DNA from: Hyaloperonospora brassicae
Lineage: Eukaryota; Oomycota; Peronosporomycetes; Peronosporales; Peronosporaceae
Direction: 5' to 3'
Length of the DNA stretch: 64,000 nt
NCBI GenBank assembly: GCA_947650285.1
Contig: CANTFL010001244.1
Coordinates: forward strand, 310,001-374,000
The notes beneath the pieces are model-generated. The model had not been told where the DNA came from. It worked only from the letters and a program-made list of their open reading frames with translations, and did not search any database. Positions 10,231 to 64,000 of this stretch are shown here, one piece after another (the first letter of the stretch is position 1; every line of letters starts with the position of its first letter). Both the position numbers and the translations under genes were made by a program.

Positions 10231-10232
10231 GG

Positions 10233-11451: not shown

Positions 11452-11489
<38 letters not shown>
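10668..11489. other. Intergenic, simple repeats ahead of SSF1
   Basis: No gene is recognised. It holds TC and AC runs at about 11208-11230 and a long (TC)n tract at about 11453-11488 that ends exactly at the SSF1 start codon, probably part of its promoter or 5' leader. Confidence 0.5.
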
Positions 11490-23044: not shown

Positions 23045-24070
23045 ATGCTGCGGTCTCGAGCCCTTTGGTTCATTGCGATATACGCACTCGCCCATTGCCT
23101 CCTTTTGGTCAACGTCACTGCAACTGTTGCAGCAGATACGGCCCCTCCTCATGCACAACAACACCACCAACACCTGTACCAGAGGGCTACGGCATTGCCG
23201 ACCATCCACAAGGCCCGACGCAACTCGCCGACCTTTGCACTCGTTGAGGGCTACGACTGCGACCACAACACCGTCGCACTTGCACGTCAGTTTGTCACGG
23301 CCAATGCCGTCACGTTCGACACGTGCATTGCCGATAGCGGCTACGAGGTGTTCTCGTTCAAAGGCGTTGCGTTAACGGCCAGCGACGTCACAGGTCTCGT
23401 CCACGCCAATGCGTGTCGGGCCCTGATGACAGCGGCACTGCTGTTGGAGATGCCGCCGTGTTTGCTCGGGAACGTGGCTGTGCGTGCAGCTTGTGAGACG
23501 CTGTTGTACTATGCAGAGGCGTTGCACGAGGAGGAGAAGGAGGACGAGGAGGACGAGGGAGAAGCGAAGGCCGAAGTCGCTCTTGCCGAGCAGTTTCGGG
23601 AGCTATTGCACTGGCGACGCGACGTGAACTTTGCACGGGCAGCGAAGAAGCCGTTTGACAGCGAGTCGAAGACGTACGTCGTGTTTACGAAAGCGGTGCG
23701 CCGGGCGCTGGCGTCGAGTAGCGTGGCAGTGATGCAGAACTATACAGTTGTTTGGGATACGAACGAGGGGGACGAGGAGGCCATTGAAGTGGACGACAGT
23801 GACGAGAGCGACGACAGTAACGAGAGCGAAAGTGAGGACGAAGATGGGGACTACACGTCGTTTGTATCTACGAACTCGTCCATGGACTACTTTGTCGGTC
23901 GCGTTGTTGCAGTTGATGAGGTTAGTGACGATACGTCGATTGAGACCCATCATGCGAAGGAGATTTTGACTACGGAGAGCTCAGGTGCCGTGGCTTTGGT
24001 CCAAAGTTGGTCAGCGTTACTTGCTCGACTGGTAGCATTACTGGCCGTGACAGTTGTAGTACTCGTCTAG
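23045..24070 (+). CDS. Elicitin-like secreted GPI-anchored protein 2
   Basis: 341 residues. A signal peptide covers residues 1 to about 30. The elicitin-like domain (about 68-155) has cysteines at 72, 94, 124 and 139 with the same spacings as in the neighbour at 20307. It also lacks the third disulfide pair and has one extra cysteine at 150. A later segment, LLHWRRDVNFARAAKKPF, aligns with ITWRKCVNLAREVGAP of the neighbour, which shows they are duplicates over most of their length. Two glutamate/aspartate-rich insertions follow, and the C-terminus (LLARLVALLAVTVVVLV) is a GPI-signal-like hydrophobic tail. It probably sits at the cell surface or wall. Its ligand is unknown. Confidence 0.77.
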   Translation: MLRSRALWFIAIYALAHCLLLVNVTATVAADTAPPHAQQHHQHLYQRATALPTIHKARRNSPTFALVEGYDCDHNTVALARQFVTANAVTFDTCIADSGYEVFSFKGVALTASDVTGLVHANACRALMTAALLLEMPPCLLGNVAVRAACETLLYYAEALHEEEKEDEEDEGEAKAEVALAEQFRELLHWRRDVNFARAAKKPFDSESKTYVVFTKAVRRALASSSVAVMQNYTVVWDTNEGDEEAIEVDDSDESDDSNESESEDEDGDYTSFVSTNSSMDYFVGRVVAVDEVSDDTSIETHHAKEILTTESSGAVALVQSWSALLARLVALLAVTVVVLV

Positions 24071-45500: not shown

Positions 45501-45829
45501 TCTTTTAGACCTTTGATATATAGGATCGCGCATCCGCGAGACAATAACATCATTTAGCCCGAGTTCTAAATTATTGCCTCGAGCGATAAAGGGAGGGAAC
45601 TACAATTTTGCTACATAAACCCTTAGATTCTTGGTGCTGTAAAAATAAGATAAGGTATCAAGCCATATTATGACCGAAGACCAGTTTGTGGCTGATAATC
45701 GGCAGTAGCCAATCAAATACTAGAGCTGACATCTCTGAGCGATCTGATTAGCTTCTTTAACGAATGGGTCAGTTTATCGCCGCACGCACGCCTCAAAACC
45801 AGGTTGACCACATACTGGAACAAGGCACG
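42569..45829. other. Repeat-rich stretch without intact genes
   Basis: The sequence is AT-richer than the gene island, and stops are dense in all frames. A degenerate minisatellite lies at 44308-44473. Short frames on either side of it (44100-45060) could be remains of a retroelement, but I see no domain that would show it. Confidence 0.45.
44308..44473. repeat. Degenerate 20-21-bp minisatellite
   Basis: About eight units built on GGTCCCTC followed by a variable part with GTAGACCTC-like ends, spaced alternately 20 and 21 bp. The mixed period shows it is not a coding repeat. Confidence 0.75.
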
Positions 45830-46710
45830 ATGAAGAAGAGAAAGGTCTATAGCCAAGACGATCTCGCGAAGGCTGTCCGTGCTCGAGAATGTGGTATGTC
45901 GTGGTACAACGCTCACGAGTTATTTCCCACGCCCCCCAGAAAGAACGACCCGCCGCCGCGCTACCCAACAGCGATCTGTTGTGATAATAAGAAGACCTGG
46001 ACCACTGCCCGTTCTTTGCCAAAAAACAGAAGACGACCTCCAGACATGGATCGTAGGGATGAAGCGAGAGGGTCTCCCTGTTAAGCGACAGGTGGTACTT
46101 AGCAAAGCAAACGAGGCGTAACGCGTGTTGTACCGTCCCGCGCGATTGGCTGGCATCTTGAGCGACGGATGAATCAAGCGAGTCTTTTCCGTCTCCCTAA
46201 TCTTTCACTCAAAATCAGTATAGGTGATTTCTCGCGCACGCTACCGAGTCGTGCAAGAAAAAGTCAACCAATACTGAATCAGCTAATTGAGCACGCGATA
46301 GAGCGCAAACTAATCAACGACCGTGTTTTCTAATATGGAAGAGACGAGATTTGATCAGAAATCGAAGTCAATGAAAATCATTGCTGTGCGTGGGTCGAAG
46401 AAGTTGTGGACAAAGTGCATCAACGTGATCTTCCACCTGACGCTAGTCGTCTGTGTTAATGCCTACGGATCGTGTCTACCGCCACTATTTCTACTTTCAT
46501 GCCAACGTTTGAATCGTGAAATCGTGAGTGAGTGATCCGTTGTTGTTGCTACAATTGACGTTGCTCCGAAGGCGTTCATAAACCAAGCTATCTTCGTCAA
46601 GTTGTTGTATTACTTTGCAGCAAGCGTACACAGAAGCGTCATCCCAGTCACTGATGCTCATCTAAAACAGTTGTGCAAGCCATTACAGCAAGACATAGTT
46701 GAGAAGTAGA
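45830..46710 (+). pseudogene. Pogo/Tigger-type transposase remnant
   Basis: The start MKKRKVYSQDDLAKAVRARE is a psq-type helix-turn-helix as in pogo transposases. After a frame change, EDDLQTWIVGMKREGLPVKR followed by QVVLSKANEA is the CENP-B-type DNA-binding helix. Then FNMEETRFDQKSKSMKIIAV and RGSKKLWTKCINVIFHLTLV with PPLFLLSCQRLNREIV give the first part of the DDE catalytic domain; the first catalytic acid is in NMEET (usually NMDET). FINQAIFVKLL and YFAASVHRSVIPVTDAHLKQ follow after a stop. Frameshifts, stops and loss of the later catalytic part mean it is dead. No terminal inverted repeats were found by eye. Confidence 0.8.
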
Positions 46711-49250
46711 TCGAGATGAGGATTATTCTATTTCTTCTTCCTCCAAACTCCACACAATCTTGTAGACTTTAGATGTATCTGCTTTCAATCCCTTCAAGAT
46801 CAGCCTACGTCTCTCCATGGACCGCTTCATGATCGATGAAGATGTGTCGAGCTCGACAAAGAAACATGCGATATCATATTCATCAAGCGCGTGACAAAAG
46901 GATGTGCTTGTCAAGCCAGATTATATAAAGTTTGGCCAATCTCAGCACCCAAAATGCGTGCACGAAGAAAATTGTACGACTATGGAGGTGTTAAGAACAG
47001 AAGTGCACTAAGATACCCGGTGTGGCTTGCAGTTCAAAAATAGCTCCATACGGAGGCACTCTTCCTTGCCAAGCCGTCAACAATGGAATTGAAATCGCAA
47101 CACTCAACATGATTGATCTCATCATGAATCAAGAACTGTTGCGACAGATCGAGTAATACAATTGTATTTTGTATTACATTTATAACGACCATAAATCGAC
47201 ACATTCGTGAATGATCCAGTATTTTTGCCTCTTTGCTTTGTTCCATAACTTTCGTATAGTTAGTTTTATTTGCATAATATAAATTGATGCAACGGATATC
47301 CACGGTATTCCTATTTCGTTAAGCTACTACAAAAAAACAAAATAAACAAAAAGCGAAGTCAACATTAAGTATATTAGCTAGTGTACACGAATCCCGGCCG
47401 TAAATCGGTCTCATACTTTATCCACGGTTTGTGTCGTCTTCATCAGCAATTTTGCGGTGCTGTTGTACTTAACATGGATTGAACGAGCGATCCGCTAAAG
47501 TATGATTATTTCTATGAAGACGCATTTTCCAAATTTCGTCACAATATCATCGTTCAGTTTCAAGTTGTGTCACCCTTATTAGCTTAAATCTTGCTTGTTT
47601 CTTCTCCTGGATTACAATTTTACTATAGCTCAAATAAATTATTCTAAGAGTATGGTAGTGCGTATGCTACAGGTAGCAACTAAAAGATCTTCTATCACGC
47701 TTAGCGATGTTGTATCTGGCAATGCAATTGAGTGCGCATTATTTAATTTGCTTCCTATTTGCATCTGTGATCTACAAGAGTTCTATTATATGGGTCAATT
47801 TAGCCGCGCAAGTGTAATCCCCACGGTTTCAAAAGCTTTGAGGCTAACGATGGTCGCGATAAATTGGTTGTATATCGCGAAAAATATGACAGGGATATAC
47901 ACGCACATAAAAGTTTACGCTATTTTTACATATGGGGGTTCTCGTATGGTTTGAGATGAACATGCAGTGAACGAGAATCTACAATACGTTTCTTTGCTGT
48001 ACATGGTCAACTTTGCGCATCACCAACGGTTGGTAGTTAACGAGGACTAGCAAGTCCGTCACTTACAGTACAACTTTACATGACTTTTGTAAATCATGGT
48101 TCGAGCCATATGTTTCTGCTCATAGATCACATATGCATCGCATTATCACCTCCAAGCCAAGATAAACACATTTTATGTATTACAATATATACTGCAAGTT
48201 TGTTTACGTCGATTGACGATTCCGAGGTCGCACTACGCTGACAGCGTCAATTTTGATCGCGTAAATTACACAATATGGACAATGTATCTTGCGACGTAAC
48301 ATTTAGTTCTCCGCTTCCATACGAAGAAACTGCCTATTCGTCGATTCCACGGGGGGATAAGTGAAAGCACGTAACTTCTACAGATCATATAGTTGCGATC
48401 CAAGGCGAACGAGTTTAGCTACACCTCCTAAATGAACTGCTGTGTAGTTGAACGCTTAACTAGCGAACGACACTTGTGCCTCCAATAAAACAGGCGTAAT
48501 GCGTCGACACATGTCCTCACAAATTTTGCATGCGGATGTTTGTCTAGGAAATGGCAGTGAAGAACAAATACTTCGTATGCAATTGAGTTTTGCTTACTTG
48601 CGCAAGATATTGCGCATCTTTGTCAGTCCGGTAAGTTACCATTTTGGTCTCAAAAAAGCTTGGTGCTATTGGTGCTTGTTTCCTTAGTGTTTCCTAGCAA
48701 ATACACTTAACATCTACCCACCGCACGAGCGTGTTCTGGCGTGAACGAGAATTGAGCTCCACTAATTGTAGATGATAAAACGTATTGACGCTACATCTCT
48801 GCGCTTGCTTTTTCAATAGCCCGGCACGCGTTAATGTTCAACGGCGCGTGCATTATTTGTAATGCCTTGATGGAGAAAAAAGTGACTGAATTCACACACG
48901 GACTGCTACTCAACGCCTACTGGATTCTATGCAAAATTCTTTCGAGACTTTCAATGTAGACTTCGTATCCGTCTACGTTGTCATCCTGTGATCAAAACAA
49001 TCAATGGATTGCACAACTGAGCCTCTACGGGTATGTTCGCAATCATTATATAACGTGATTGGACAACGTGCGAGAACAATAGTCGACTACCATTCTGGAG
49101 TGAGAGCCTTGAGCTACACCCCACGAGAGGACTTCTCGTTCGCGCGTTATGAATTATTGCTCCGAGGTGAGCCATTGTGTCACGTGTCTAATGTTTTTTC
49201 TTTCCCCAGGTACACTCGTTCTAGGAAAGTTCATTCCATCGGATGAGCCA
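46711..49250. other. AT-rich stretch without recognised genes
   Basis: Only short frames (up to 119 codons at 47595-47954) with no domain. Composition and stop density suggest old, decayed repeats. Confidence 0.45.
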
Positions 49251-50300
49251 CTAACACTGCCTACCGTCCATTCGGTGTTTGACAAGCGCTTCTAAAATGT
49301 GCGATTCGTCACTAGTGCCTTCATCAAAAATAAATGGTATTTCTTTCCTTACCGGTAGACTGCTAAATCGCAAAGGGTTTGGCACAAAATGTCTTAACAA
49401 AGCGATGTTGAAGCTCAGATACAACTCGCTCAGTGGGCGAAGGACAGTGATTTTGACCATGTTATGGTTGATTATTCTATTACTCTTTGAACGGTTCAAC
49501 CTGCGTCGCAACTAGCTTATAATTTGTTGTAGATTTTCCGTTATTACTATGGCGCACTTTGAGATGCCTAGCGCCAAGCATAACCACATTCCCGTCTTTA
49601 AACGCAACACTGCTGCGTTTTCTGCTTTCATACTATTTTTGAGCATTCTCAAAGTTCGCCCGTGCAAATTTCATGATCTTCTGTCTGCGAATATATTGGC
49701 GTACTCAGCCAAACCAATCTTCGTCACTACTTCACTGGAATTGCCTGCAACAGCGTTGTTGACTTTTCGACCCGTGTCAATTTCGAATGTTTATAGCTGG
49801 ATAGACTTGCCTAACAGCGTAGCGTGCGCAAACTCAATATTGCCGAAATGATATGACCTTTCACTACCATGTTACGACACCATGCATCTTATATAATTAA
49901 TATTTGGCGCTCTGTTTTACCGTCCGCTTGTGCGCGGTGCGATATCGTCATTGAAAGCATTGTATCCATGACCGTAATGAGAAATTTCCAAGAGTTAAAC
50001 GTAAATTTTGGGTCGCGATCGCCTAGATGGATTTCTATTAGACCGTGGTAACGGATTACAGCATCGAAAAACGAGATAAGAAACCTGTGGCGCATCGAAG
50101 TTGGTGTGCGTGGCAGCATATCTTTTATGCTTCGACAATTTATCCAATACAGTAATGATCGCGTCGAACCCGCTTGACACTGGAAGTTCCGCAATAAAAT
50201 ACACCAAGACAACTTCCCAAAATTCTTCTGGTATTGCTATAGGCGGGTTTGTCATTTTCTTACGTGTCCTCGCCTTTCATCGTACACATGTACCACAGCT
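49251..50300 (-). pseudogene. Old gypsy integrase and chromodomain-linker remnant
   Basis: Read right to left on the minus strand: AELPVSSGFDAIITVLDKLS, then HLGDRDPKFTFNSWKFL, SMTISHRAQADGKTERQ, a stretch with NSMKAENAAVFKRGNVVMLG, and near the end LRPLSELYLSFN and IPFIFDEGTSDESHILEALV. This is the order of integrase core, integrase C-terminus and the lead into a chromodomain in a Ty3/gypsy element. It belongs to a different family from the two copies in this window, since it is the conventional type with SDRDPKFTS and HRAQADGQTER motifs. Many stops and frame shifts; no LTRs seen. Confidence 0.75.
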
Positions 50301-50907
50301 TGTGACATAGTCGAGTACGTCTTGTTCCATGTTTGGCTAGTCAGAAAATTGTCGTGCCTTCAACTGAGTGCGACAAATTCCTGGATGTGCCGCTGTAATT
50401 TTCATCATGATGTTCTAGTAAAATACCGGTGATTAATCGATTGTCCGCTGACATGCAAAGTCGATTAATAACATGCTTTGTATTTAATTGTAATAGCCCA
50501 TTGTTTTAGCCCGCACTCCTCATAAATATTGTTCAGAGCACTCACAAATTTTTGGTCTGAGCGTAGCCGACTTTGACAATCTCTGCATCAGGGGATATAT
50601 AAAAACTTGATACCACAAACTTGATGCGCTGGACTTGATCCTACTTCTATAAGTGTTGGATTTGATGTAATCGTACGAGGTGAAGCACATCACTTATCTG
50701 TCAAAGGTCATTCACATCTAGAACGAGTTCCTGATCAAGACGTGCAAGCGAGCAAAATAATTTTTAATGAAGGCTATGACGTGTGGAAGTATCCCGAACA
50801 GCGCACTGCGGACCAAATTCATGAAGTCGATATAGTGAATCTAAGAAGGAACGTGTGGGCGGAGTGACCCCGGTAGCCGGTGGCAAAACATCGGCGACCA
50901 CGTTGGA
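50301..50907. other. Left flank of chromovirus copy 2
   Basis: About 600 bp, probably retroelement debris, with no intact frame. The last five bases before the LTR are TTGGA. Confidence 0.45.
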
Positions 50908-51304
50908 TGTAACGGGGCACACCCTTGCGTGAACTTAACGCAAGGATTTTGGGTGCCCCGACAGACGTACACGAGGCGAACGAGGAAGCGTAGGATAAGG
51001 AAAAAGTAAAACTGTTATATTAATATAATTAAGTCTTTTTGCTACTGTCTTTTTGTTTAACCTGACTTAATTATGTTAATATGACTGAGTGTATGGTGAC
51101 GTCTCGTCACCACTCATTGCGCGCGTCCTGCGGCGATTGGTGCATTGATATCATCAAGATATCGACCAATGAGCAGACCCTTTGGTCGCTCCACCAATAT
51201 CACCACGTTGGTGATATTGTTCAAAGAATATTCAGCTTAATATTCTTTATTGTCATTGTTTCTTTTAAAGTGACAATTTCCATGTAACGGGCTGCCCCGT
51301 TACA
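50908..51304 (-). repeat. Left LTR of copy 2 (3' LTR)
   Basis: 397 bp, from TGTAACGGGGCA to TGCCCCGTTACA. It holds a chain of hairpins: a nested one at 50913-50960, GATATC-based at 51147-51163, arms CAATATCACC at 51195-51204 with 51210-51219, and arms ATGTAACGGG at 51282-51291 with 51296-51305. Read on the plus strand, it lies directly upstream of the accessory gene. Confidence 0.93.
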
Positions 51305-51436
51305 TCACTACCCCTTTAACTGATAGTCGCCGTGTGACTATCGAAAATGTGGTGGCCACCCGTTGGTCACCATTGGGACAGGGAGCACTTGTTGGGTCCG
51401 CTCCATTCACTTTCCGCTTGACCTCGCATAGTTAAC

Positions 51437-53040
51437 ATGTCTATGCGAGGTGACTCAAGACCCACACAGCCCGGTGCTGTGCCAACCTCTGCGGCAGACG
51501 ATTCGTCGTCTACTGCTCTTTCTTCGCCTGCAGCAACAGGTGCTGCAGGTGCACGCGGTACTGCACCGCGTGCGCATGATGACCCCGACATTGAGGTCAT
51601 CTACTCTGGCGAGTCAGACGTGTCTGACTCGGGCAATGCTGCAGAGGCGTCTCGCCCACCGGCAACGCCTCAGTATTCGCCACGGCCACTGCCGAACGAA
51701 CGGAATCGTGAGTTGCAACACAGTCTGTTCGGCAGTGATGACGAATCGAATGATGAGTATGTTTGATCATCACCGCAATCAGCTCGTGCTCCTTCGCACG
51801 AGCGACTTGACGGTGGTGCAACCCATCGTCATACTGACAACCGTGGTACCGACAAGGGTACCACTGTACAGCGTGATGAGCTGAAGCCGTGGCGTTTGCC
51901 CGAACGGCTCATCAATAGCTTGTCTCAAGAGACAAACCAACACCATCGAATACCCTTATTCGATGCGACTGAGCTTCACGGCTTGAATCCCAGCGCGAAG
52001 AACTTTCGCGCTGAAGAAGGTTTTTATCTCGATGTCTTTCTTAGACATCGATGGTACAACAGCAACCAAAAGCGTGACAAAGCCTCGCTTTTGGCTGCGT
52101 GGAACGCGTTCGTCTAAAACGTAAAGAATTTTGGACGAGAAGGGTGGCTCAAGAAACTTGAGGCAACACGCCTCAGGTTCGAAAGCGAACTCCAACCTGT
52201 GCCAGGTACCGGTTGCACTATTTATCAAGTGAGGCCGGCATTCCATGCCTCACTTGGGGAGACCCTTGTGCGAGTTGTGCTGACAACTCGCAACGTGCAC
52301 ATAGGGATGTTGATTCCCTGAATTCGCCCTGGGGAAAGGCACACATCTCGGAGGAGATGCGTGACGCGATTGCAAACTTGCAATCCGTATACAAGCGCCA
52401 AAAGCGCGTGTTTACCGATGGGCCCGAGGACTCATCGGATGGGTCTCGTCATATTGTCGGAAGAGACCTTCAACATCCATCAACATCTGAGAGCGGGGCT
52501 CACAGCTGTTCCAAGAGGGTGGATACCCCCGCCACTGGACGAGGTAGCTCGTCCTTGATCCTGAATCGTCACGGTGATTCAAGATACGCTCCACTAGAAA
52601 GCGTTGACCACCATGAGCATCCACCAAAGGATGTGGTAGAGGAGGAAAGACCTTCTCCAGAGCCCCAGGCTCACCATCTCGACCCTTACGAGATGGATCG
52701 CGCAATCGATGAATTGCGCGATGACTTGAAGCACGAGCGCTACCGGCGCTACGCTTTGACTGATACCGTGCGGAAGAACCGCAAGGATCGCGAGGCTGAT
52801 CGGGCGAGGGATCGCGCCGATTATGCCACAGCGCAGCTTCAGGTCGAGCGGGATGTCCGCTCCCTTTACAGCGATCTGGCGACAGCTCGCGGGGAGATAT
52901 CTCGGTTGAGTTCCGAGGTATCATATCTGCGCGACCAGACGGATCGTCTGGAGCGCAAACGCAAGAACTTGATGGATGTTCTTGAACGTGGGGGCTATCG
53001 TCATCGGAAGAAGAAGGCTCGTACTGACAGTACGGCCTGA
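51437..53040 (+). pseudogene. Plus-strand accessory gene of chromovirus, copy 2
   Basis: It starts at ATG 51437. The first 110 residues are Ser/Ala/acid-rich with IEVIYSGESDVSD. After a TGA near 51764 the same frame continues with a domain containing FYLDVFLRHRWYNSNQKRD and LLAAWNAFV, then a TAA at about 52115. A deletion of about 7 bp near 52194, relative to copy 1, shifts the frame. From 52213 it is open for 275 codons to 53040, with a cysteine cluster (CLTWGDPCASCADN), a low-complexity part and a charged coiled-coil-like end: MDRAIDELRDDLKHERYRRY and later RLSSEVSYLRDQTDRLERK. From 52412 on, the opposite strand is also open and encodes the integrase tail and chromodomain. I do not recognise the protein. 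Position beside the 3' LTR suggests antisense transcription from that LTR, which is inference. Confidence 0.68.
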
Positions 53041-53644
53041 GTCGCCCCACGTAAAACATAGGATGCGTCCGCATCTTACGTGGCAATTCGAGTGTGTATG
53101 CATTGCCCTTGCGATGAAACACTCGAAATGGCCCAACGTATTTCGGCAGTAGTAAACTACTGCCGACAATAGTGACTGCATGTCCAGGTAAGTTTACCGT
53201 AGACAGTAGTACTAGGTCGTTAACCTTAAATGAAAGAACATTTGCTCTTCCATTCTTGTCTGCGTTCCGTTTCTGGCGGTCCACCACATTTGCGATGGAG
53301 TCCTGAACGAAACGGACTACCGCCTCTCGAGTCAGCAGGAAGTTCTCTGCTGACTCTTTGTTTTGTCTTTCAGTGCGCTTCGTGCGCACTGCTAAGAGAT
53401 TGTTCTCTTCATCAGCGAGGTTGTCTTCTTCCTCGCTAGAAAAATCGTTGACGATGCTGAATATACCAGCATCGTCATCATCATCCGAATCAATAATAGC
53501 GTTGTCGCTATTATTGCGGTGGTGTGCTTCATCGATGTCGACATTGTCGACATCGGCATCATACGTGACGACGTTAGCGTCGACACATGATGAGCAAGAG
53601 CCAAAATGGCTTTTGCTCGAGCGATTCCCTCCCCCCTTATCCAA
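52412..53644 (-). CDS. Integrase C-terminus, linker and chromodomain, copy 2
   Basis: This is an open frame of about 410 codons, in effect the 3' part of pol after a frame break. It contains RQKRNADKNGRANVLSFKVN and LVLLSTVNLPGHAV, then KYVGPFRVFHRKGNAYTLEL and PRKMRTHPMFYVGRLRPY, the integrase C-terminal GPF/Y module. An Arg/Ser/Pro-rich linker of about 130 residues follows. A chromodomain ends the protein: RFLVERILNHRDDSGSRTSY, LVQWRGYPPSWNSCEP and MDVEGLFRQYDETHP. In this frame the linker shows no sign of constraint between copies, whereas the chromodomain does. It overlaps the plus-strand accessory gene from 52412 to 53040. Confidence 0.85.
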   Translation of the reverse strand: MDKGGGNRSSKSHFGSCSSCVDANVVTYDADVDNVDIDEAHHRNNSDNAIIDSDDDDDAGIFSIVNDFSSEEEDNLADEENNLLAVRTKRTERQNKESAENFLLTREAVVRFVQDSIANVVDRQKRNADKNGRANVLSFKVNDLVLLSTVNLPGHAVTIVGSSLLLPKYVGPFRVFHRKGNAYTLELPRKMRTHPMFYVGRLRPYCQYEPSSSDDDSPHVQEHPSSSCVCAPDDPSGRADMIPRNSTEISPRELSPDRCKGSGHPARPEAALWHNRRDPSPDQPRDPCGSSARYQSKRSAGSARASSHRAIHRLRDPSRKGRDGEPGALEKVFPPLPHPLVDAHGGQRFLVERILNHRDDSGSRTSYLVQWRGYPPSWNSCEPRSQMLMDVEGLFRQYDETHPMSPRAHR

Positions 53645-54479
53645 GAGTCACACTCTAAAAGGGCGGGCACACGTGGATGGCGTAAGCCATTCACGTAAAA
53701 CGGTGTGTGCTGTGTGGAAGCATGCACCGAATTATTGATGGCGAATTCCACGATGGGTAGGAATTCGCTCCAACTCGGAAACGAGTGGACATATCCTCGA
53801 AGTATCTCTTCGATGACACGGTTCGCACGTTTCGTCTGACCATCTTTTTCGGATTGGTCAGAAGTGGACATCTTCAATCGTTTTTCAAGAGAACGGAACA
53901 CGGTTAGCCAAAACGCCGCAGTGAACCGAGGGTAACGGTCGGATACGAGTTCACGGGGTAACCCGTGGAGTCTAAAGACCGTGTCAAGAAAGACACGAGC
54001 ACAACCGGGTGCCGTGATGGACTCGGGCACTGCAGCAAGATGCACCATATTGCTGAACCGATCACGAACACAAGAATATAATTATTCTTGTGAGCGTCTT
54101 CGGGAAACCCGAAGACGAAGTCCATTGAAACGGACTGCCAGCACTCTGCCGGGACCGGTAGAGGCTGTAATGGTGCACGGGATGTAGGACTAGGCTTCAC
54201 CCGTTGACAAACCTCGCAAGCACCTATGTACTAGCGTACAAACTGATACTGCCGTGGCCAGTAAAAGTCACAACTTACCGTGGGGTAAGTCTTTTCTCTC
54301 CCACGATGGCCACCTGTTGGGGCATCGTGACACTCATACACGATGCGTGATCGCAATTTATTATGAGTGGGGACTACGACACGAGGCGTGTCGCCTTCAA
54401 TGGCTGTATAATAAAACAGTCCGTTACGCGTTGTGTACCGATCCGATGAGGATCGGTACAGAGCCGGTAAATCCTTCAA
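53392..54479 (-). pseudogene. Integrase core, copy 2 (frameshifted)
   Basis: The zinc-binding part at 54479-54231 has VYECHDAPTGGHRGREKTYP. The catalytic core begins at 54200 with VPAECWQSVSMDFVFGFPED, shifts near 54070, and continues in the frame 54048-53392 with MVHLAAVPESITAPGCARVF, LHGLPRELVSDRYPRF, TSDQSEKDGQTKRANRVIEE and FPSWSEFLPIVEFAINNSVH. The DDE acids (MDF, SDRYPRF and VIEEILR) are all recognisable, but a stop near 54233 and the shift near 54070 separate them. Confidence 0.85.
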
Positions 54480-54593
54480 TGATTATTTTACTGGATGGAT
54501 CCATTAGATGATCCATTAATCGCAGAAGATAAGGATCTTCTGCGTATGCCTTTCGCACGTCGTCAAGCTTACTTGACGACGGAACACTGACTC

Positions 54594-55837
54594 TCAGTGT
54601 CGCAACAGTGGGCTTATCCTCACTGTTGGATTGTGCGTCCGGCTCGAAATCTTCCGGCGAGAGAGCGCATCAGCGACGACGTTTAGTCGTCCTGGTTTAT
54701 ACTCTACGGAGAAGTTATACTCCGCGAAGTAAGACAGCCACCTCGCCATTCTCTGCGAGAGGTGTGGGCTGTTTACGGCCGTGCGTAGTGACGCATGGTC
54801 CGTATAGACAACAAACGATCTATCTCCGAGGAGATAGACGCGAAACTTAGTCAGTGCGTACTTCATGGTAAGGAGTTCCGTGTCATTCACTGGGTAATTG
54901 CGCTTAGCTGCTTGCAGCTGACGCGACTGATAACAGATGACGCGCTCCGCGCCATCTGCATCAAATTGCATTAACGCACAGCCGATCGAAAAATCGCTGG
55001 CGTCACAGACCACATGAAATGGTCTGTACTGATCTGCAATCGCCAATATCGGCGACTGTATCAAGCTCCGCTTGATACCCTCAAAGAAACGCTGGCACTC
55101 AGCGTTCCATTATCACTTGACATTTTTCTTGAGCAAACGAGAATGATGAACAGTCATCTCGGCTTAGTTGCGCGAGTACTTGTGCAAGTACGCCGATAGT
55201 CCAAGGAACTTCCTTAGTCCCTTGACATCGACTGGCACTGGCCAGTCGGTGATCGCCTTGATCTTTTCGGGATTAGGGCGTACGCCGTGTTTACCCACAA
55301 TGCACCCAAGAAGTGGTATTTCGCTAGCGCGAATATACACTTCTTGAGGTTTGCGTAAAACTTATGCGCAAGCATAAGTTGAAGAACCTCACGAAAGTGA
55401 GTTCTATGAAATTCAACGTCCGTCTTTCCGTCCGTAGCCCGGCTATGGACGAACACATCGTCGAAGTAACTCGGTGCGAAGTCTCGCACCGGTCTCAACA
55501 GATCTGTGACACATCTGTTGAAGGTAGCAGGGGCATTGCTCAGCCCCTGTGGCATCACTAGCCACTCCCACAGCATCCCGCTGAGGGTACTCACTACCGT
55601 GAACGGTATGTCCCGTTCACGCATGAGGATCTGACAGAGCCCATCCATCACATCCATGGACGAATAGATGGTACTCTTTGACATACCATCTATGATTACG
55701 TCCTTCCTCGGTATCGGCGTCTGAGCCGGTACCGTTGCAGCATTCAACTTGTTGAATGCGTGCACTATCCGCCACCCTCCTGTGGCCTTTCGCTCACAGA
55801 AGGTCGGAGAGCTGTGATGGGATGTTGATTCTACCAC
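54594..55837 (-). pseudogene. Reverse transcriptase and RNase H, copy 2
   Basis: RT at 55837-55214 has HHSSPTFCERKATGGWRIVH, MDVMDGLCQILMRERD, MPQGLSNAPATFNR and the catalytic APSYFDDVFVHSR. A one-base change near 55325 shifts the frame at the FLGALWV part. RNase H at 55064-54594 has FHVVCDASDFSIGCALMQFD, NYPVNDTELLTMKYALTKF, FVVYTDHASL and EYKPGRLNVVADALSRR. RT and RNase H together would make cDNA from element RNA. Between them, 55213-55065 reads in several frames. Confidence 0.87.
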
Positions 55838-55903
55838 ATGGTCCGCTGCTAAGCGATCGACAAAGAACTTGTCAATCGCTAATACTTGTTCACGAGGCAG
55901 TGG

Positions 55904-56501
55904 TCACTGCTTCATGACACAGTAATTCGAGCCCAGTTTGAGCTCGATCTCGTGTCGAGTGCCTTTGTCCTTAGGCAACTCGCAAGGTACGGATTCAGGG
56001 AGCACATCCCTGAATTTGATCAAATCCTTATACAAGGGATTTGACAGAAGTGACTCCCAGAATTGAGATGTGTATCGCTCAATCCGAGTCCCCTCATCAA
56101 GGACACTTTCGTCCATCTATGAGCTACTTAAAAAACCGTTCTTTCTCAGCAAATACTGTTGCCGACCGAATATCGGTCACATACTCATCCTCTGTGACGA
56201 GTATGCAGATCTGCTTGACTTTGCCACTACTCAGATCACGCAAGAACCGCTTCGGTTCTAGCGTTGGCAACTGAGTTATCTCCGAAGTCAACTTCGGAGG
56301 CACAATCAGATCAAGCGTATAAGCGCATACGCTTGATCCGTCATTAACCAAGACGTTCAACGTCTCGGTTACTTCCTGGTAACTCCGTTCCACAGGTTGC
56401 TGAAGGCCTAATCCTTCAGCAAGTGAATCTTGAGGAATTCCTTCCTCAAGTACGTGGGGAATTATTCCCTCGACGTCTTCTGACTGTGGGTGTGCAACCA
56501 C
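55904..56501 (-). pseudogene. Protease-to-RT spacer region, copy 2
   Basis: Two fragments, 56501-56124 (with TLDLIVPPKLTSEITQLP and KQICILVTEDEYVTDIRSA) and 56116-55904 (RYTSQFWESLLSNPLYKDLI, VPCELPKDKGTRHEIELKLG). The second is the usual lead-in to gypsy RT (P-DKGTRHEI-L). They are separated by a frame break near 56120, and a stop follows KQ at 55904. Confidence 0.7.
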
Positions 56502-56795
56502 AGTCAGGGACCGATCCTCTACGGTCGACTCTTCAGTCTACCTAGGATATCCGTGTTGCCGCTTTTGGGCAACCGGTTTACTCTTGCTGGGATGTCGCCT
56601 GCTAGACGTACATCCACGTCCCAGTCCACTCGACTTCTTCGAGTGGTAGACCTTCGGCGCAGCCTGTAATTCTGTACAGCTGCCGGTAGCTTGCTCCACA
56701 GTGTAGTGATCAACTACACTGTGATATTGTGCGGTCGTGATAACGAACGAACCGCAAGTGAGGCCATCGCACTCACTCGCAGAACATCCACACGC

Positions 56796-57257
56796 TTATG
56801 GAAGCTCCAAGATGTTCATCAGATGGCCATCTGATGAACAAGCGGCAGGCATCTTCACGGATCGATGCTGCCAGCTCACTCTTGGCTCGTACCTTCTGAG
56901 CCAAGGTAATCCCAGGATGACATCAAATTTGTCATCCAGATCCAGTACGATGAAGTCATCATCGTACTGTTCGCCCTCCAACGTGTAGTGGATTCCTACT
57001 ACACGTTTCTAAACGGTAATCGAGGCGCCTGTTGCAAGGCGCACCGTCATCCTCGTGAGGGGAAAGTCGCGTTCAACGAACTTGAGCCTACGACCCTCTA
57101 GTGACTGGCGACGAACAAAGTTGTTCGATGCCCCACAGTCTAATAGGGCACGAAGCGACAAACCATTTGTCGCTTCCAACTTCAAGGTGATGAGCGAAAC
57201 GTCATCACCAGGTGCAGAGACACACAATGATTGTGTATCTGGAGCAACTTTCGTCAA
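56796..57257 (-). pseudogene. Aspartic protease, copy 2 (one stop)
   Basis: Reads SLRALLDCGASNNFVRRQSL, with the catalytic aspartate in a DCGAS version of the usual D[ST]GA motif, and later DDKFDVILGLPWLRRYEP. A TAG near 57009 splits the domain. Copy 1 lacks this stop but has lost the aspartate. Confidence 0.82.
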
Positions 57258-57307
57258 GAGATTTGCAAATTCTCTAGAGGTTGCTGGATCAGTAGGGCGC
57301 TCCGCCC

Positions 57308-58462
57308 CTACTGACCCCGACCATTTTTTGATGGTCCGTCTCGCTGTTGCGGCTTCGCAACAGCGCTAGACCCACGCCCATTGCTCTTCTTGGCGAATGG
57401 TCGTCCATTTCGCTCAGTACTGCTTGGTACTGGGCGTGGGGCACTACACTCATGTGCGAAGTGCCCTAACTTCTGACAGCGATTGCACTTCAGCAATCGC
57501 TTGTTGTTTGAAGAGCAAGGTCTCTCGCTCTCAACATAGCAAAGGTCCATTGGTTCTGGACCTCCGATCTCTTGTCGTCTTGGTGAAAGATAAGAGTTTG
57601 AGCTAGCATGAGCCTGTCTTATGCTGAAGTCTTCCTGTTCCGCGGCTGATATCGCTTCTTCAAGCGTATTCAGCTCAAGGCGGAACAGGTGGCTCCCGAC
57701 GGGCCCTTCTGCGAGCCCTTGCATGAACACCGTAATCAACGTGTGTTCATGAACTGGGTTAGCAGTTATACTATTCGCAAGGAGTCGTATATGTTGTGGG
57801 TAAGCGTGCACATCACGCTTACCCTGCTTGAGTGTCAGGAGCTCGAAACGAGCCCTGAACTCAGCCCATGGCGGCTCAAACGTTTGTCTGAGCCGAGCCT
57901 TAAAGTCATCTAGCGACCTAAACACATTTAGGTCGCTACTCTCGAGCCCCAGGGACCAAGTTTTGGCACGCCCTGCCAAGTGGGTTTGAGCAAATGTGAG
58001 TTTCATTTGATCATCTTCGACGCGACGAGCCCTTAGGGCTCTGTCGAGTTCGACAAACCATAGTAACAGGGAGTCTTCCGGGATTCCACTTTACTTGGAG
58101 ATGTCAACTTTCATGACTTCGGGACGACGCGCATGTGCCGTCCTGCCCACAGCAGCATGGAATTGCTGACGTCTCAACAGCTTTGTCTGTTGATCACCGA
58201 GTTCTCTCAACAGATCGGCCTGTTGAGAGCCTTGGTGGTGAAGCAAGGTTACTTTCTCTCTTTCGGCGACAAGTTCATTTTGAATGAACTTGGCTATAGC
58301 GGCATGTGGTTGGTCTCTGTCTAGAGACTCCAACATGGCGCTAATGGCGAACTCGCCTACGGTAGAACTCATTCGTTCTACCGCACTCCATTCGATATCT
58401 CTCAAATGGGTAAACCCTTCACGCGTGGCGTGAAAGGTCTCTTCATCATCCAACATGTTCAT
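57308..58462 (-). pseudogene. Gag, copy 2 (one in-frame stop)
   Basis: One frame runs from MNMLDDEETFHATREGFTHL at 58462 to 57308, interrupted by a single TAA near 58091, where copy 1 has a histidine codon. Capsid-type helices (FAQTHLAGRAKTWSLGL and DVHAYPQHIRLLANSI) are followed by PEPMDLCYVE and the CCHC knuckle CNRCQKLGHFAHEC, then a basic tail. This is the best-kept gene of the element after the chromodomain frame. Confidence 0.87.
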
Positions 58463-58496
58463 GTTGGATGTTGTGGTCCTTGGAAGGACTACAAAG

Positions 58497-58504
58497 TGCT
58501 ACCA
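58497..58504 (-). promoter_or_regulatory. Primer binding site, copy 2
   Basis: TGGTAGCA on the minus strand, two bases inside the right LTR, same as in copy 1; fits an initiator tRNA 3' end. Confidence 0.55.
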
Positions 58505-58506
58505 GG

Positions 58507-58903
58507 TGTAATGGGGCACACCCTTGCGTGAACTTAACGCAAGGGTTTTGGGTGCCCCGACAGACGTACACGAGGCGAACGAGGAAGCGTAGGATAAGGA
58601 AAAAGTAAAACTGTTATATTAATATAATTAAGTCTTTTTGCTACTGTCTTTTTGTTTAACCTGACTTAATTATGTTAATATGACTGAGTGTATGGTGACG
58701 TCTCGTCACCACTCATTGCGCGCGTCCTGCGGCGATTGGTGCATTGATATCATCAAGATATCGACCAATGAGCAGACCCTTTGGTCGCTTCACCAATATC
58801 ACCATTATCGGTAATATTGTTCAAAGAATATTCAGCTTAATATTCTTTGTTGTCATTGTTTCTTTTAAAGTGACACTTCCATGTAACGGGCTGCCCCGTT
58901 TCA
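58507..58903 (-). repeat. Right LTR of copy 2 (5' LTR)
   Basis: 397 bp. It starts TGTAATGGGGCA and ends TGCCCCGTTTCA, each with one change from the left LTR termini. The hairpin matching 51195-51219 has imperfect arms here (CAATATCACC against GGTAATATTG). Confidence 0.93.
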
Positions 58904-61599
58904 TAAATGGTATGGGCGAGACATGATGCGTATGGACAAACGATTGACACGTCCAAGCAATGATGGGATAAGCACGAGCTAGCATAGACATGATTGCTGC
59001 AGTCACCAGCGCAGACACAGTGGAGAGCTATGGCAAGGCCACCCGCGTTTAGTCTTTGTGCACATGCCAGCATCGAGCACTTGCAAAGAGCATCGCGAAA
59101 TTGCGTCAGCTACCAATAGTTCTATACTTTACGCATGCACCTTGTTGCCAGTGAGATCCTCGATGACCAACTCTTTGCTCGGACATAAAGCACGAGACGC
59201 CTCCGAGTCCTTTGGCGCTTACATCGTATCCTATGACTTCCCAGAGATCTCGCACAACGCCATCACCCCCATATCAGACAAGCCGGACCTTCTCATGAGG
59301 CCTGGACTTCGTGGCGCGTGATTGGGAAGCAGCTGGAAAACACGATATCGGCTCATCGCAGTCAGCAGCAACGACATGCGAGCCACATCGGCCGTGCTCG
59401 ACTTGAAGGAAATTGCGAAGTTGGCTGGAGAATGATTGCGTATCTGTCAGGATCATGACTCACAGAGGGCAAACTGTTGAACGATAAGGTAAACGGAACG
59501 ATCAAATCGATCGCATAGGACCCTACAAATGTGCCTATCTAATTGATTGAAACTGGCAGAAGCAACCCTAGAAAATTCTGGTGGAAGCCTTTCGATTTCT
59601 TTGCCACAACAGGTGATTGTGGTGGTATCTGTCATCGGCTTGAAACGCTGACGGTCACACGAGCAAGACGCGACGCTTGAGCGCCGACTGGGTTTCCATC
59701 TTCAGCAGTATCGGTCTTTGGGCATAGTCGTACTCTGGCGCACTAGACGCCTGCTGCCGACACCTCTAACAGCCAACATGGATACACCGCTCACGCCTGC
59801 ACAACTCCTTTACTACTACTAAAAGCGCAGAAATAACTGAGAAAGCGGAGGGTGGTCGATGACATTGTTGATGGACATAGACAGATGATACTGATCCGGT
59901 ATAAACCTCGCTGGAAATATTCCAAATAGCTGTAGAAGCAAAGACACGCCTGTCCATCAACATATTGCTGTAGAGCTTATCTGGGCTGACCCCAAAGTGG
60001 TGCACAGAGCGAAAGTGTTCTGGTCCGATAAAAACAGCTGTGATGTCGGCAAATTCTATGAATGTCACGGCTGCGCAAAAACCCTACATTGTGCGCTCAA
60101 AATAATCAACCGCACCCAAAAAGAAAGGTCTTCGATCGTGTTCGCCGCGGATCGTGCGAGCCCACATAACCGCTGCACACTCCCCAACTTGTTGATATGG
60201 TGTCGAATAATTGGCAACGAGTTTGACAATGTCCCTGTCAAAGCTGCGCTTGTAATGTTGCATCTCTGCGTGCTCAAATCGTTCCTGCTTTTAATAGACT
60301 TTGTCGCTGCCGCTAGCATTCATAGAAATGCACGCAACGGAAGAGCATGTACTTTAGGTTCAGACTGCTCGTTTCAACGCGCCAAAGCCGCTTCATATGC
60401 AAATCATTGAACTGGACGCTCCCTGCACTCGGTTGTCTCATGAAAACTGCTCGATTCAATGTGCCAGAGCCGCTTGGAATGCAAATCATGGGACCGGATG
60501 CTGCTCGCGCTCTATTGTCTCTCCAGTACTGCTCGATTCTGCGAATTGCCGTTCTCCAACAAATTCCATCGACAGGTCGTGCCTTCTACCGATCATCTCT
60601 CAAATATTGGCGCGCGGTGTCTTTCCTCAATGAACATTTTCTGTATAGCTGTTGGCTCTGTCTATTGAGTCCCGTCGTCGCCATCGCTTGTTGGCGAGAC
60701 CAGATCTCCAACTCGCTGATACAATGAGTCCACCTATCGAACACCGGCATCCCTTTGGACTCTCACCTCACAGAACCTTCGCTGCAATACGCTTCGGCTT
60801 TCGATAACACGATGCCGCTTTTGGCCAAAGAGCAACCTGTCGATTTGAAATGTCACACGCAGAGACATTTCACGCACAGTCAAGATGGCTCAAGGGTGCT
60901 AGGGACCTTCAAGTAGCCTGGTACGTAAACTGGAGCACTACCCGCACGAATCGGCTCGACTGTTTTGACGAACGGCCGCTTAGTAGCTGGGCACAAACCG
61001 CCACAGCCTGACGCCATGCCTTATCGCTGGACACGTACGTCTCGGTAGCTCGAAGACCTCGGCACAAAAGAAAAGCGATGCTCGAGCTGTGTGACGCCAC
61101 AAATTGTGCACAGTGTGTGGCTGTGACGGCTGGCCGACAGTAGTACCCGGATCCATGTTTTCGACTGCATGTACTCACATGGACGGTGCAACGTATATTG
61201 AATAGCGTAAAGTAGGAGCAGCTGATTTTTGGGTGCGAATAGACGAAGCCGTTAACGGCAGTATTCTGATCCGACCAGCTGCACGTAGGCTGCCACCGCA
61301 CAAGTTTGCCCACAACATGTCTGCATCCACGAGCTTTATTGGCAGCTCATACTAGAATAAAGGTGAATCGGTTTGATTACTGCATGCTTGCGCCAACTGG
61401 TTTGAACGTCACACGACTATTGTCCGACGACGGGTACCAAAATTCCTGCCTCTGTAGCACAAAATATCGGGTCTGGACAACGCTTATCAAGTGACAAAGA
61501 TTGAATCACCTTAGGCCACTGGATCATCCCGCCAACCATTTTCATTTAACAATTTGCGCCCCACTGCGAAGTCTCCTTTGGCCGCTCTGTCACTCCGTC
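58904..61599. other. Intergenic before the effector gene
   Basis: No gene supported. It contains an 82-bp tandem repeat at 60364-60560. Other open frames are short or antisense to each other. Confidence 0.45.
60364..60560. repeat. 82-bp tandem repeat, about 2.3 units
   Basis: Units start at 60364, 60446 and 60528 with ACTGCTCG(A/T)TTC. The first two match imperfectly over the whole unit (CAA(C/T)GCGCCAAAGCCGCTT-like blocks, ATGCAAATCAT). The period is not a multiple of three, so it is unlikely to be coding. Confidence 0.8.
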
Positions 61600-62640
61600 A
61601 TGAAGCCCCTATACTTTCGAGCGCTCATCGTCAGTGGCTTGCTGTCCGCCATGTTTTATGGCGCTTGGGGTGGCTCCGTACGAGAGGCACCGGCACCTGG
61701 TGCTCATGCACTCGATCACGAGACGGTGAAGACGGCACCGGCACCTGATGCTCATGCACTCGATCACGAGACGGTGAAGACGGCACTGAGTGCCCAAGCT
61801 ACCACCAGCGCCGAGCAAGAAGATCGAGGGTGGAAGATTCCCGACGTTGTCCCTTTCCTCCATGGCTTGGGTCCAGCCAAGTTCGAGAGGGTTCCGCCAG
61901 ATACAGGGTACATCGCCCATTTGAACCTTGATGTTGGCAAGGGTGAAGGTCTCCGTCGCATACAAGCTCCATCCCCCTTCGACGGCGAGGCCGAAAGGAT
62001 AGTGGAATGGATGGCTCTCAACCTGTTTTCACACGTCTCATCCATGAATCCGCCTCGGCATTCGGTCGAGCTTGCTAAGATACTGGAAGGCTTGAGTCCG
62101 TCAAGAGCGGCACTCGTGCTTAAACATGCGAGTAAACTCAGAGGGACACAAGCGTGGGTTGAAATGGCTGAGCAGACTCTGGCTGAAAGGGTTACATCAA
62201 GGAAATTCACCGATGGGGGAAATGGTCATGTCAAGTCGCCGGTCGCTGGCGAAAAGGCAGCACTCATCCTTTCCTTCAAGTGGAAGGAGTTGCAACTAGA
62301 GAGTCTCTATCAACGGATTTTCTTCAACAGCGCACAAGAACCGACTACTCTGCAGCTGGAAAAGAACGTTGCTCAGCAATTAGGCGATCTGCCTCTTGAC
62401 GATGCTGCAATCGTGGTTCAAATCGCGAAGAAACACAGCAAGACGAGTAAACTTGCTGAAAAAGTTCAAAAAAAACTGTTTGATCAGTTCAAGCGCGCGG
62501 GTTACACGCCTGAGGACATGGAAATGGGTTGGTTGCTGCCGGCTAGTCAATTTGACAAGTCTATTTACGGTGGACTTGTTAAAGCGCTTATCGACGATTA
62601 CAAGAATGCTTACACGTGGCGGAGATACTTGTTTGGATAA
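61600..62640 (+). CDS. Secreted effector candidate with LWY-like helices, no RxLR
   Basis: 346 residues, intronless. I start at the ATG giving a signal peptide (MKPLYFRALIVSGLLSAMFY, cut near residue 25), not at one 33 codons upstream. A 16-residue unit (APAPGAHALDHETVKT) is repeated twice directly after the signal peptide. No RxLR is present where it would be expected; EQEDRGW could be an EER-like acidic motif. The rest is helical, with pieces like those of WY/LWY effectors: VELAKILEGLSPSRAALVLK, TQAWVEMAEQTLAERV, then LPLDDAAIVVQIAKKHSKTS, KLAEKVQKKLFDQFKRAGYT and PEDMEMGWL. The last segment, ending GYTPEDM, resembles the usual link between LWY modules. Such proteins act inside plant cells. 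The target is unknown. Confidence 0.7.
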   Translation: MKPLYFRALIVSGLLSAMFYGAWGGSVREAPAPGAHALDHETVKTAPAPDAHALDHETVKTALSAQATTSAEQEDRGWKIPDVVPFLHGLGPAKFERVPPDTGYIAHLNLDVGKGEGLRRIQAPSPFDGEAERIVEWMALNLFSHVSSMNPPRHSVELAKILEGLSPSRAALVLKHASKLRGTQAWVEMAEQTLAERVTSRKFTDGGNGHVKSPVAGEKAALILSFKWKELQLESLYQRIFFNSAQEPTTLQLEKNVAQQLGDLPLDDAAIVVQIAKKHSKTSKLAEKVQKKLFDQFKRAGYTPEDMEMGWLLPASQFDKSIYGGLVKALIDDYKNAYTWRRYLFG

Positions 62641-64000
62641 AGTCGCCTTTGATCAGTTTGGTGAGACGGTCCGCTACGTCATAGCTTTAATAATCGCTAG
62701 TACATGTTGTTGCTTATGTTTATCGTTGTTGTGTTTTGTGTCCTGTGCCAGTCACGCACACAGCACCGGCTTGCTTTGGTACGGATTTTTTGTAGCAAAG
62801 TCATATGAATCACTACTAGCATATCGCGGCTCTCGTAAATAAACGTACGCACAGTGGCCAACGTGTGTGGCGTACGACACTTGCCACAGAAGATTACAAA
62901 GCTATTATTCCGTAGTTAATCGTTATATTACCACTACATTGCAGTGACCTAAGTAACAATATACAGAAATCTCATACGTTCACTGCTAACCAATCGAGTA
63001 GGAAATATGCTACTGCAGTATCTGCCTGGATTTGAATATGTCATCAACCGAGTTTATTACATAGTGCCATTGAAGCACGTTAATACATGTCACGTCCTTC
63101 ATTAAAACCGTATTAAGCAAAATCATCAACTTTTTTCGCTTCCAATCTTTTGCCACGTACCATTTAATCCATACATGGGAAAAAGGTACGGCGTAATTGT
63201 TATTACTGTAAGCTATTGCACTATTGCAAGTTGCAGGGCTGTGCTTAAGTAGTGTGCTTATCATCATAAATCCCCGCGATCATATCTAATACTCTCTTTG
63301 CATGTAACGGGATGAGCCCGTGGCTTCTCATTAACGCCAGATTGGTCATTTCATATACATTATGATACTTGATTACTGTGTAACATGAATTTTACCAGGT
63401 AAATGTTGAAGAAAGACCACCTTCAAAGGTGAGATGTAGTACATACCCACGTATTTGGTAATACAGGCCATCATGTGAGCTAACTAAAAGGTCTCTCTTA
63501 CTAGAAATGCGCAACGAAGGTGTGTGCGAGTGACTACATCTGACATTTATGAACACATGTAGTGAAAGTCCGATCAAATGGGTTTTTGAATTGAAATTTT
63601 CCTAAACTAATCACAGTCTTACTGTTATACTTTGACTGTGTGTATCGTTTAAAAGACTAAATCTTTCTCTGCACGAACAATGTACGTTTCGGTGCACTTG
63701 CCCTTTCTCTGCACGAACAATGTACGTTTCGGTACACTTGCCTACCCAATGTCTATATTTTAATAAATTAATCTTTTTCTTTAAAAATTAAATTTATATC
63801 ATTAGAGAAAAAGAATATTTGTCAAAATATATCGCGAAAGAATCTTAACTTTTCATTTGGATTATAAATCAATTGATTCGATATGTAGATAGCATGCACG
63901 GTGTCAGTGCATACAGGGGGCGCCCCAATGCACTGTATCGATTTTCGATAACAGCAATTACCACACTAATAAAGCACGCTAATTTTATATCGGGATGATA
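62641..64000. other. AT-rich right end
   Basis: No gene recognised. At 63302-63321 the sequence ATGTAACGGGATGAGCCCGT resembles the terminal palindrome of the chromovirus LTRs and may be a scrap of a related LTR. Two tandem 40-bp units lie at 63663-63742. Confidence 0.45.
63663..63742. repeat. Two tandem 40-bp units
   Basis: Units at 63663 and 63703 begin CTTTCTCTGCACGAAC and differ by about two bases, so the duplication is recent. Confidence 0.9.

Follow-up and report, generated by a model that had tools for sequence, protein, structure and literature searches.

The window analysed here is a 64,000-nucleotide stretch of the oomycete Hyaloperonospora brassicae (contig CANTFL010001244.1, positions 310,001 to 374,000) that contains two copies of a Ty3/Gypsy chromovirus, a long terminal repeat (LTR) retrotransposon. 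Copy 1 spans 2479-10667 and copy 2 spans 50908-58903; in each, gag-pol is encoded on the minus strand and its reading frames are broken. Short, mostly Watson-Crick hairpins tile these and related elements along all the sequence examined, and the maximal hairpin span is characteristic of each family. The features that carry this result are the following:

50908-58903, minus strand: copy 2, LTR retrotransposon of the hairpin-tiled chromovirus family A, with 73 perfect hairpins of arm at least 8
2479-10667, minus strand: copy 1, a more decayed relative of copy 2, with 43 perfect hairpins and a similar size limit
50908-51304, minus strand: 3' LTR (of the sense strand) of copy 2, with ends TGTAAC...GTTACA and 5 hairpins
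58507-58903, minus strand: 5' LTR (of the sense strand) of copy 2, with 3 hairpins
52415-58498, minus strand: gag-pol of copy 2, with stops and frameshifts, and SH3_Tf2-1 and a chromodomain at its end
51195-51248, no strand assigned: two perfect hairpins within the LTR of copy 2, at 51195-51219 and 51223-51248
53533-53555, no strand assigned: perfect hairpin in copy 2, arm 10, loop 3
55993-56015, no strand assigned: hairpin with a paired change relative to copy 1 (7751-7779), A.C and G.T intermediates being present in other copies
56697-56723, no strand assigned: perfect hairpin in copy 2, arm 11, loop 5
57478-57501, no strand assigned: perfect hairpin in copy 2, arm 9, loop 6
57911-57938, no strand assigned: perfect hairpin in copy 2, arm 12, loop 4

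The LTRs of copy 2 form a pair with 99% identity over 298 nucleotides (nt). The end of its pol shows a chromodomain and an SH3_Tf2-1 domain (PF00385, 38.7 bits, cut-off 25.1; PF24626, 41.2 bits, cut-off 30); this chromodomain result refers to copy 2 alone, and the loci L073, L074 and L080 are called relatives on protein identity. In the Ty3/Gypsy reverse transcriptase/RNase H region, 1,014 of 1,077 candidate proteins matched, and the 120 matches listed carry PF17919/PF17917. Phytophthora supplies the names of many of the RNase H relatives and Peronosclerospora that of one; together with the elicitin-domain protein and the plus-strand 3' frame described below, they suggest a downy mildew or a closely related oomycete as the host. 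The genome assembly examined has 100.6 Mb in 898 contigs.

When hairpins were defined by perfect arms of at least 8 bases and loops of 3-12, copy 2 showed 73 in 7,996 nt and copy 1 showed 43 in 8,189 nt, against 10 in the 31,079 nt between them (11490-42568). The stretches 1-2478, 42569-50907 and 58904-64000 (15.9 kb together) hold four more, and the count covers the window except for 0.8 kb from 10668 to 11489. The sequence-only reading of the window had reported perfect hairpins recurring along gag-pol in both copies, beyond the neighbouring genes, and these counts bear it out. The hairpins that it quoted are present where it placed them, with arms corrected to 9 bases at 57478, 10 at 53534 and 12 at 7752. 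It had assigned the tiling to the coding region 53041-58500, where it is indeed present, but the tiled stretch is wider, with densities of 4.6-12.6 hairpins per kb across the LTRs, the 3' part and every part of gag-pol of copy 2. Dinucleotide-preserving shuffles (10 per copy) gave means of 1.4 hairpins for copy 2 and 1.3 for copy 1; with arms of at least 10 bases, 34 and 12 hairpins were observed against 0.1 and 0.1. The stretch 11490-42568 slightly exceeds its own dinucleotide shuffles (10 against 3.5, four shuffles). Codon-preserving shuffling, set beforehand as a test of the density, confirmed the excess in the young copy L044 (43 hairpins in 1,071 codons; mean 0.55 and maximum 3 in 20 synonymous shuffles), and L060 showed 46 against 0.8 (n = 20).

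The same tiling is found through family A. In the first set of loci, each of the 30 has 25-51 hairpins per 3.6 kb, and 12 of the 13 young loci (L043-L054 and L060) hold 44-46 in about 3.46 kb, around 13 per kb, the remaining one (L052) having 38. Identical hairpins recur in dozens of separate copies, and arms cover about 28-31% of the bases in two family A copies. As a control, the 12 Copia loci together contain 32 hairpins in 44.3 kb (0.7 per kb); their chief source is a set of repeated TGACGTCA palindromes in L062-L065, perhaps regulatory repeats. Relatives were sought in the viral_contigs and genome_contigs collections and none was found there.

A feature absent from the sequence-only reading is that hairpin size is limited in a family-specific manner. 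In an extension test on family A hairpins pooled from four copies (arm at least 6, loop 3-9), the next outward pair matches with a frequency of 0.70-0.93 at spans up to 24 nt, 0.46-0.64 at 25-28 nt and about 0.2 at 29-30 nt. For loops of 3-4 bases the chance of a match drops from 0.79 to 0.27 at arm 10, and base composition does not move this step, which G+C-rich and G+C-poor stems reach at one arm length, on small numbers (8 and 13 stems). A stability target was also considered: between copies and families the mean stem energies agree, at -11.4 to -11.9 kcal/mol, and in copy 2 the arms become shorter as G+C rises (rho -0.32). It is disfavoured by the step, and because the step shares its arm length across G+C-rich and G+C-poor stems, length rather than energy seems to be limited in family A hairpins.

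The limit was also followed by counting every 5-bp stem by its outer span, with spans of 60-200 nt as the background. Family A copies L044 and L028 show 5-8 times background up to 24 nt, 3 times at 27-28 nt and 1.2 times at 29-30 nt. The profile of the window copies 2 and 1 is alike and weaker, copy 1 having an excess up to 27-28 nt and 1.6 times background at 29-30 nt. In L073 (one copy) the excess is 4-5 times up to 20 nt, 2.5-2.8 times at 21-24 nt and 1.2 times at 27 nt, while L080 and its second copy L082 show 2-3.6 times up to 24 nt and about 1 at 27-28 nt. L074 and its second copy L083 reach 7-9 times background at 13-14 nt, 5 times at 15-16 nt and about 1 or less at 19-24 nt; a small second rise of stems (1.4-2.3 times) is seen in them at spans of 25-30 nt. 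L074 contains 37 hairpins of exactly arm 5 and loop 3 (mean 4.0 and maximum 8 in 30 synonymous shuffles), and the open stretch of L083 contains 18 against 2.4 expected from shuffles. Such tiny hairpins, with a 5-bp stem, a 3-base loop and a span of 13-14 nt, are below the reach of searches with arms of at least 8.

The maximal span is thus characteristic of each family, about 13-16, 20, 24 and 24-28 nt, and for two families the limit is reproduced in the second copy. These related families are known from pieces of 3.5-4 kb, and protein identity among L044, L073, L080 and L074 is 55-67% (77% in a shorter comparison of L073 with L082). Ten reverse-transcriptase loci from outside family A were compared: L073, L080, L082, L074 and L083 are tiled, and the other five (L075, L076, L077, L079 and L081) are near background. 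A host stretch and six of the 12 Copia loci gave about 1 times background, the other six (L062-L065, L068 and L072) having been left out of the span test as carriers of repeated palindromic motifs. A small-RNA ruler as the sole cause of the limit is weakened by the 13-nt family L074/L083.

In family A the hairpins are nearly indifferent to the type of mismatch. When G.U or A.C pairs were admitted, the counts were 71 and 67 in L028, 62 and 70 in L044, and 114 and 120 in copy 2; the related families gave 34 and 36 (L073), 18 and 29 (L080), and 20 and 13 (L074). Stems of the family's own size with one mismatch carried G.U and A.C in 18 and 18 cases in L044, 30 and 29 in L028, and 1 and 3 in L080. 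L074 shows a moderate G.U excess, with 56 G.U stems (31 in shuffles) and 34 A.C stems (24 in shuffles). Pair gains on internal branches of the family A trees described below arose from G.U, A.C and transversion mismatches in 13, 21 and 13 cases. Furthermore, both strands fold alike. In windows of 240 nt, folding energy is below that of dinucleotide-preserving shuffles by 50.7% (L028), 51.0% (L044) and 50.5% (L060) in the sense strand and by 51.3-54.8% in the antisense strand. The sense and antisense values are 42.7 and 42.5% in L078, 16.7 and 17.7% in L073, 18.7 and 25.1% in L074, and 5.7 and 7.2% in L080; nine control stretches from host genes and other elements range from -1.9 to 6.4% in sense and from -1.3 to 5.0% in antisense. 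Ordinary sense-RNA structure is rejected for family A, in which G.U is no better tolerated than A.C and the antisense strand folds equally, and it is less firmly rejected for L074, given its moderate G.U excess.

Hairpin positions are mostly unconserved between families. Of 53 hairpins in L044 and 35 in L073, 3 have coinciding centres (1.5 by chance); L044 and L080 also share 3 (of 53 and 17; 0.7 by chance), and the closer pair L073 and L080 shares 6 (of 35 and 17; 0.45 by chance), some of them with paired changes. Arms tend to lie in less conserved codons: identity across the other three families holds for 93 of 220 codons in arms and for 283 of 503 outside them. Derived residues at these conserved positions are not clearly enriched in arms (13 of 93, against 32 of 283 outside), so a protein cost was not evident in this comparison. 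A bias of the hairpins in codon register failed on testing (p 0.08 to 0.67 in five loci).

Copies that are on average more similar to the rest have more hairpins (r = 0.66, 31 sequences). Pair changes were counted by parsimony on two trees of 30 copies each, which share about 1.84 kb, and their counts are therefore not fully independent. The pairs scored are perfect in at least five copies and readable in at least 26; root branches and the branch above five sister pairs from the same contig were dropped. Gains and losses of Watson-Crick pairs number 47 and 62 on internal branches and 42 and 733 on terminal branches (odds ratio 13, p 9e-24). When every change was scored for what it does to hairpins, young terminal branches differed little from random, with 12 gains and 67 losses among 387 changes (3.1 and 17.3%; random 2.3 and 19.5%). 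Losses are depleted on internal branches of both trees, 67 of 817 (8.2%) and 18 of 286 (6.3%) against 24 and 17% at random, and in one tree the internal gains amount to 25 of 286 (8.7%) against 2.0%. Changes common within a young clade comprise 2 gains and 6 losses among 52 (random 3.8 and 19%). The ratio of substitutions in arms to those outside is 0.68 on internal and 0.91 on terminal branches (Fisher p 0.004). Since the tips mostly record mutation after insertion, this contrast means that pairs are maintained on replicating lineages and lost after insertion; by itself, it does not separate selection from repair. A one-arm divergence test against copy 1/L078 gave just 6 usable cases.

The size limit follows the family and not the host, which points to a factor encoded by the element, under selection or correction alike. 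We lean slightly towards natural selection on the replicating nucleic acid as what keeps the hairpins, instead of their being by-products of templated mutation, and give about even chances that a cis-structure selected in the replicating element is the best explanation overall. Gag/nucleocapsid or the reverse transcriptase of the element would then recognise the hairpins, which by the hundred would serve as scattered units for binding, packaging or shielding; a role in the RNA as well as in the minus-strand complementary DNA (cDNA) would explain why both strands pair equally. Such recognition is speculative and, in our estimate, doubtful. Somewhat less than even is our confidence in a family-specific length code evolved by a clade of retrotransposons, by which much of the replicon, coding or not, would be pushed towards perfect self-complementarity up to a fixed number of nucleotides but not beyond; its reader or writer would be a ruler encoded by the element, a binding protein or else the reverse transcriptase.

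Selection is favoured by the excess over both kinds of shuffle, by the correlation of hairpin number with identity to the other copies, by the internal-terminal contrasts in pair changes and arm substitutions, by the depletion of internal losses beside near-random young terminal branches, and by the sharp span limits with their step at one arm length whatever the G+C. Several results weigh against it. In family A the pair losses on internal branches comprise 25 to G.U, 22 to A.C and 15 others, so that G.U is not favoured, and among the one-mismatch stems of L073 A.C exceeds G.U by 13 to 2; selection on RNA structure expects G.U to be better tolerated than A.C, and the family A result thus counts against it. 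Internal gains in the other tree are barely above random, 39 of 817 (4.8%) against 3.8%. Old terminal branches lose less than random, 306 of 2,486 (12.3%) and 134 of 1,038 (12.9%) against about 18%, and gain more, 102 (4.1%) and 34 (3.3%) against 1.8%. The sequence-only reading had noted that arms often change on both sides at once between copies. Paired changes do exist, and several pass through mismatched intermediates that are still present in other copies, but they are few (46 of 14,304 pair cells) and weak as evidence of structure: two-sided changes that keep the pair within one branch are rarer on internal (2) than on terminal (23) branches, and so add no support for structure on the replicating lineage. 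Finally, pairing that stays flat and then steps down to chance is as natural for an enzyme of fixed reach as for a binding protein, and repair of single mismatches by the reverse transcriptase would yield the same contrast between internal and terminal branches.

The serious rival to selection is a palindrome-correcting reverse transcriptase, a minority possibility in our judgement, in which the enzyme, on encountering a near-palindrome no longer than a fixed reach, uses one arm as the template for the other. It would perfect near-palindromes anywhere, LTRs included, with the reach of each family's enzyme setting the size limit. The tiling of the LTRs and the 3' part, the strand symmetry and Watson-Crick restriction of family A with its indifference to mismatch type, the turnover of positions, the step-like limit and the maintenance of pairs on replicating lineages all suit it, and template switching has been reported to create and repair hairpins (PMC8794818). 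When private mutation clusters were searched for reverse-complement copies of a nearby segment, 0 of 333 scored, 14 further clusters being left out as too long; three control transforms also gave 0, and the power of this search is not shown. Within hairpins, 75 groups of changes fall on internal branches; a single base is changed in 64 of them, with the two arms hit 33 and 31 times. Among the 11 multi-base groups, 8 touch both arms and 3 lie on one arm, which speaks against copying from one arm; five of the 11 fall on the root-side branch, of ambiguous direction, and without it 4 of 6 touch both arms. Correction is further opposed by the slower change of arms on internal branches (0.68 against 0.91), an unbiased process predicting about 1 by our reasoning, and by the 2 gains among the 52 changes shared in the young clade, where about 20% would be predicted according to a rough hand estimate that assumes equilibrium (P = 0.0009). 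Related enzymes would also need reaches from about 13 to about 28 nt. Of the two processes proposed in the sequence-only reading, a selected RNA or single-stranded DNA structure and correction of near-palindromes by reverse transcription, the tests lean to the former and the latter still stands as its rival.

Other explanations appear weaker. Shielding from RNA silencing, which we consider unlikely, supposes that local folding of both strands would keep duplexes from forming and small-RNA guides from acting, and that guides cut from a hairpin would fold on themselves. Oomycete small-RNA guides derive from both strands, and folding here is equal on both. The span limit of family A (about 24-28 nt) is near the 25-26 nt small RNAs tied to silencing in Phytophthora parasitica, which lie mostly in repeat-rich regions without strand bias (PMC5411455), and in P. 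infestans small RNAs map mostly to transposable elements, chiefly LTR retrotransposons (PMC3522703). However, the limits of families sharing this host range from about 13-16 to about 28 nt, a spread that a single host guide size would not predict, arms occupy less than a third of the bases in the two family A copies measured, and other retrotransposon families of the same genome lack hairpin tiling. Selection on a property of double-stranded DNA, such as a cruciform in the provirus or in unintegrated cDNA, is very improbable: perfect palindromic arms and strand symmetry suit DNA as well as RNA, but in integrated copies losses of pairs far outnumber gains (733 against 42), so that the integrated state by itself is not protective. 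Chance, amino-acid or codon composition, or an assembly artefact has practically no likelihood, as the dinucleotide and synonymous-codon shuffles refute composition, the same hairpins stand in dozens of separate copies, and the values for host genes and for other retrotransposons from this assembly stay near background.

Additional features were found in the window and in other copies of the family. An open frame lies on the plus strand in the 3' part of copy 2, and a further plus-strand stretch goes with it:

52162-53037, plus strand: open frame antisense to the chromodomain end of pol, with 29 homologues
51422-52114, plus strand: stretch grouped with this frame

The best named homologue of the 52162-53037 frame is from H. 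brassicae (91% over 77% of the frame). Three of its 29 homologues are labelled 'RxLR effector candidate' in H. arabidopsidis, and these labels may derive from transposon sequence. An elicitin-domain protein is encoded between the element copies at 23045-24067 on the plus strand (25.5 bits, cut-off 25). Although the LTRs of copy 2 are nearly identical, all relatives sampled diverge from its interior by 5% or more, and its reading frames are interrupted; either LTR conversion or amplification in trans of a broken lineage would account for this. Oppositely oriented neighbour copies of the family, about 8-21 kb apart, occur on contigs C738, C824, C24, C871 (L012/L017), C831 (L037/L038) and C781 (copy 1/L078), and the L012/L017 pair shows 99.8% identity; they may be inverted duplications or an assembly effect.

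The architecture is apparently undescribed: no description of it was recognised in the open-access literature searched, which lacks most subscription papers and bioRxiv preprints, so that its absence is not proven. We know of no whole coding genome written as ruler-limited palindromes. Should selection be responsible, protein-coding sequence would here bear nucleic-acid structure throughout, a strong example of its kind that the many natural insertions allow to be dated and tested; should the enzyme be responsible, a genome would be rewritten into hairpins by mutational drive. In both cases the outcome matters for the coexistence of structure with coding, for the origin of compensatory changes and for the reading of covariation as evidence of function.

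Template-switch mutations are known as scattered events. Here, unlike in such mutation, kilobases are tiled, and multi-base templated changes were sought and not found, the control transforms also giving 0. Family A shares with template switching the indifference to mismatch type and strand, and template switching or quasipalindrome correction is likewise reported to produce short perfect hairpins, and to mend them, in one event each (PMC8794818). A Ty3/Gypsy genomic RNA structure is available for Ty3 from selective 2'-hydroxyl acylation analysed by primer extension and mutational profiling (SHAPE-MaP), and what is described there is a well-folded core with specific cis-acting sites, rather than an even succession of perfect hairpins (PMC11381356).

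Sense-RNA structure with G.U pairs is a defining feature of genome-scale ordered RNA structure (GORS), which is known from RNA viruses and associated with persistence; such sense-RNA structure is not found in family A, and L074 shows some G.U excess. Like GORS, the elements show folding energies far below shuffles and consecutive stem-loops whose positions are poorly conserved between relatives (PMC7642675). The GORS differences given there, with windows of 350 nt and thus another window length, are 7.5-10.7% for hepatitis C virus, about 15% for severe acute respiratory syndrome coronavirus 2 (SARS-CoV-2) and 23.4% for the highest genome value mentioned, single regions reaching over 50% (PMC7642675), against about 51% in family A. 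Unlike GORS as described in that source, the carriers here are LTR retrotransposons, and family A shows Watson-Crick pairing only, equal strands and a sharp, family-specific size limit.

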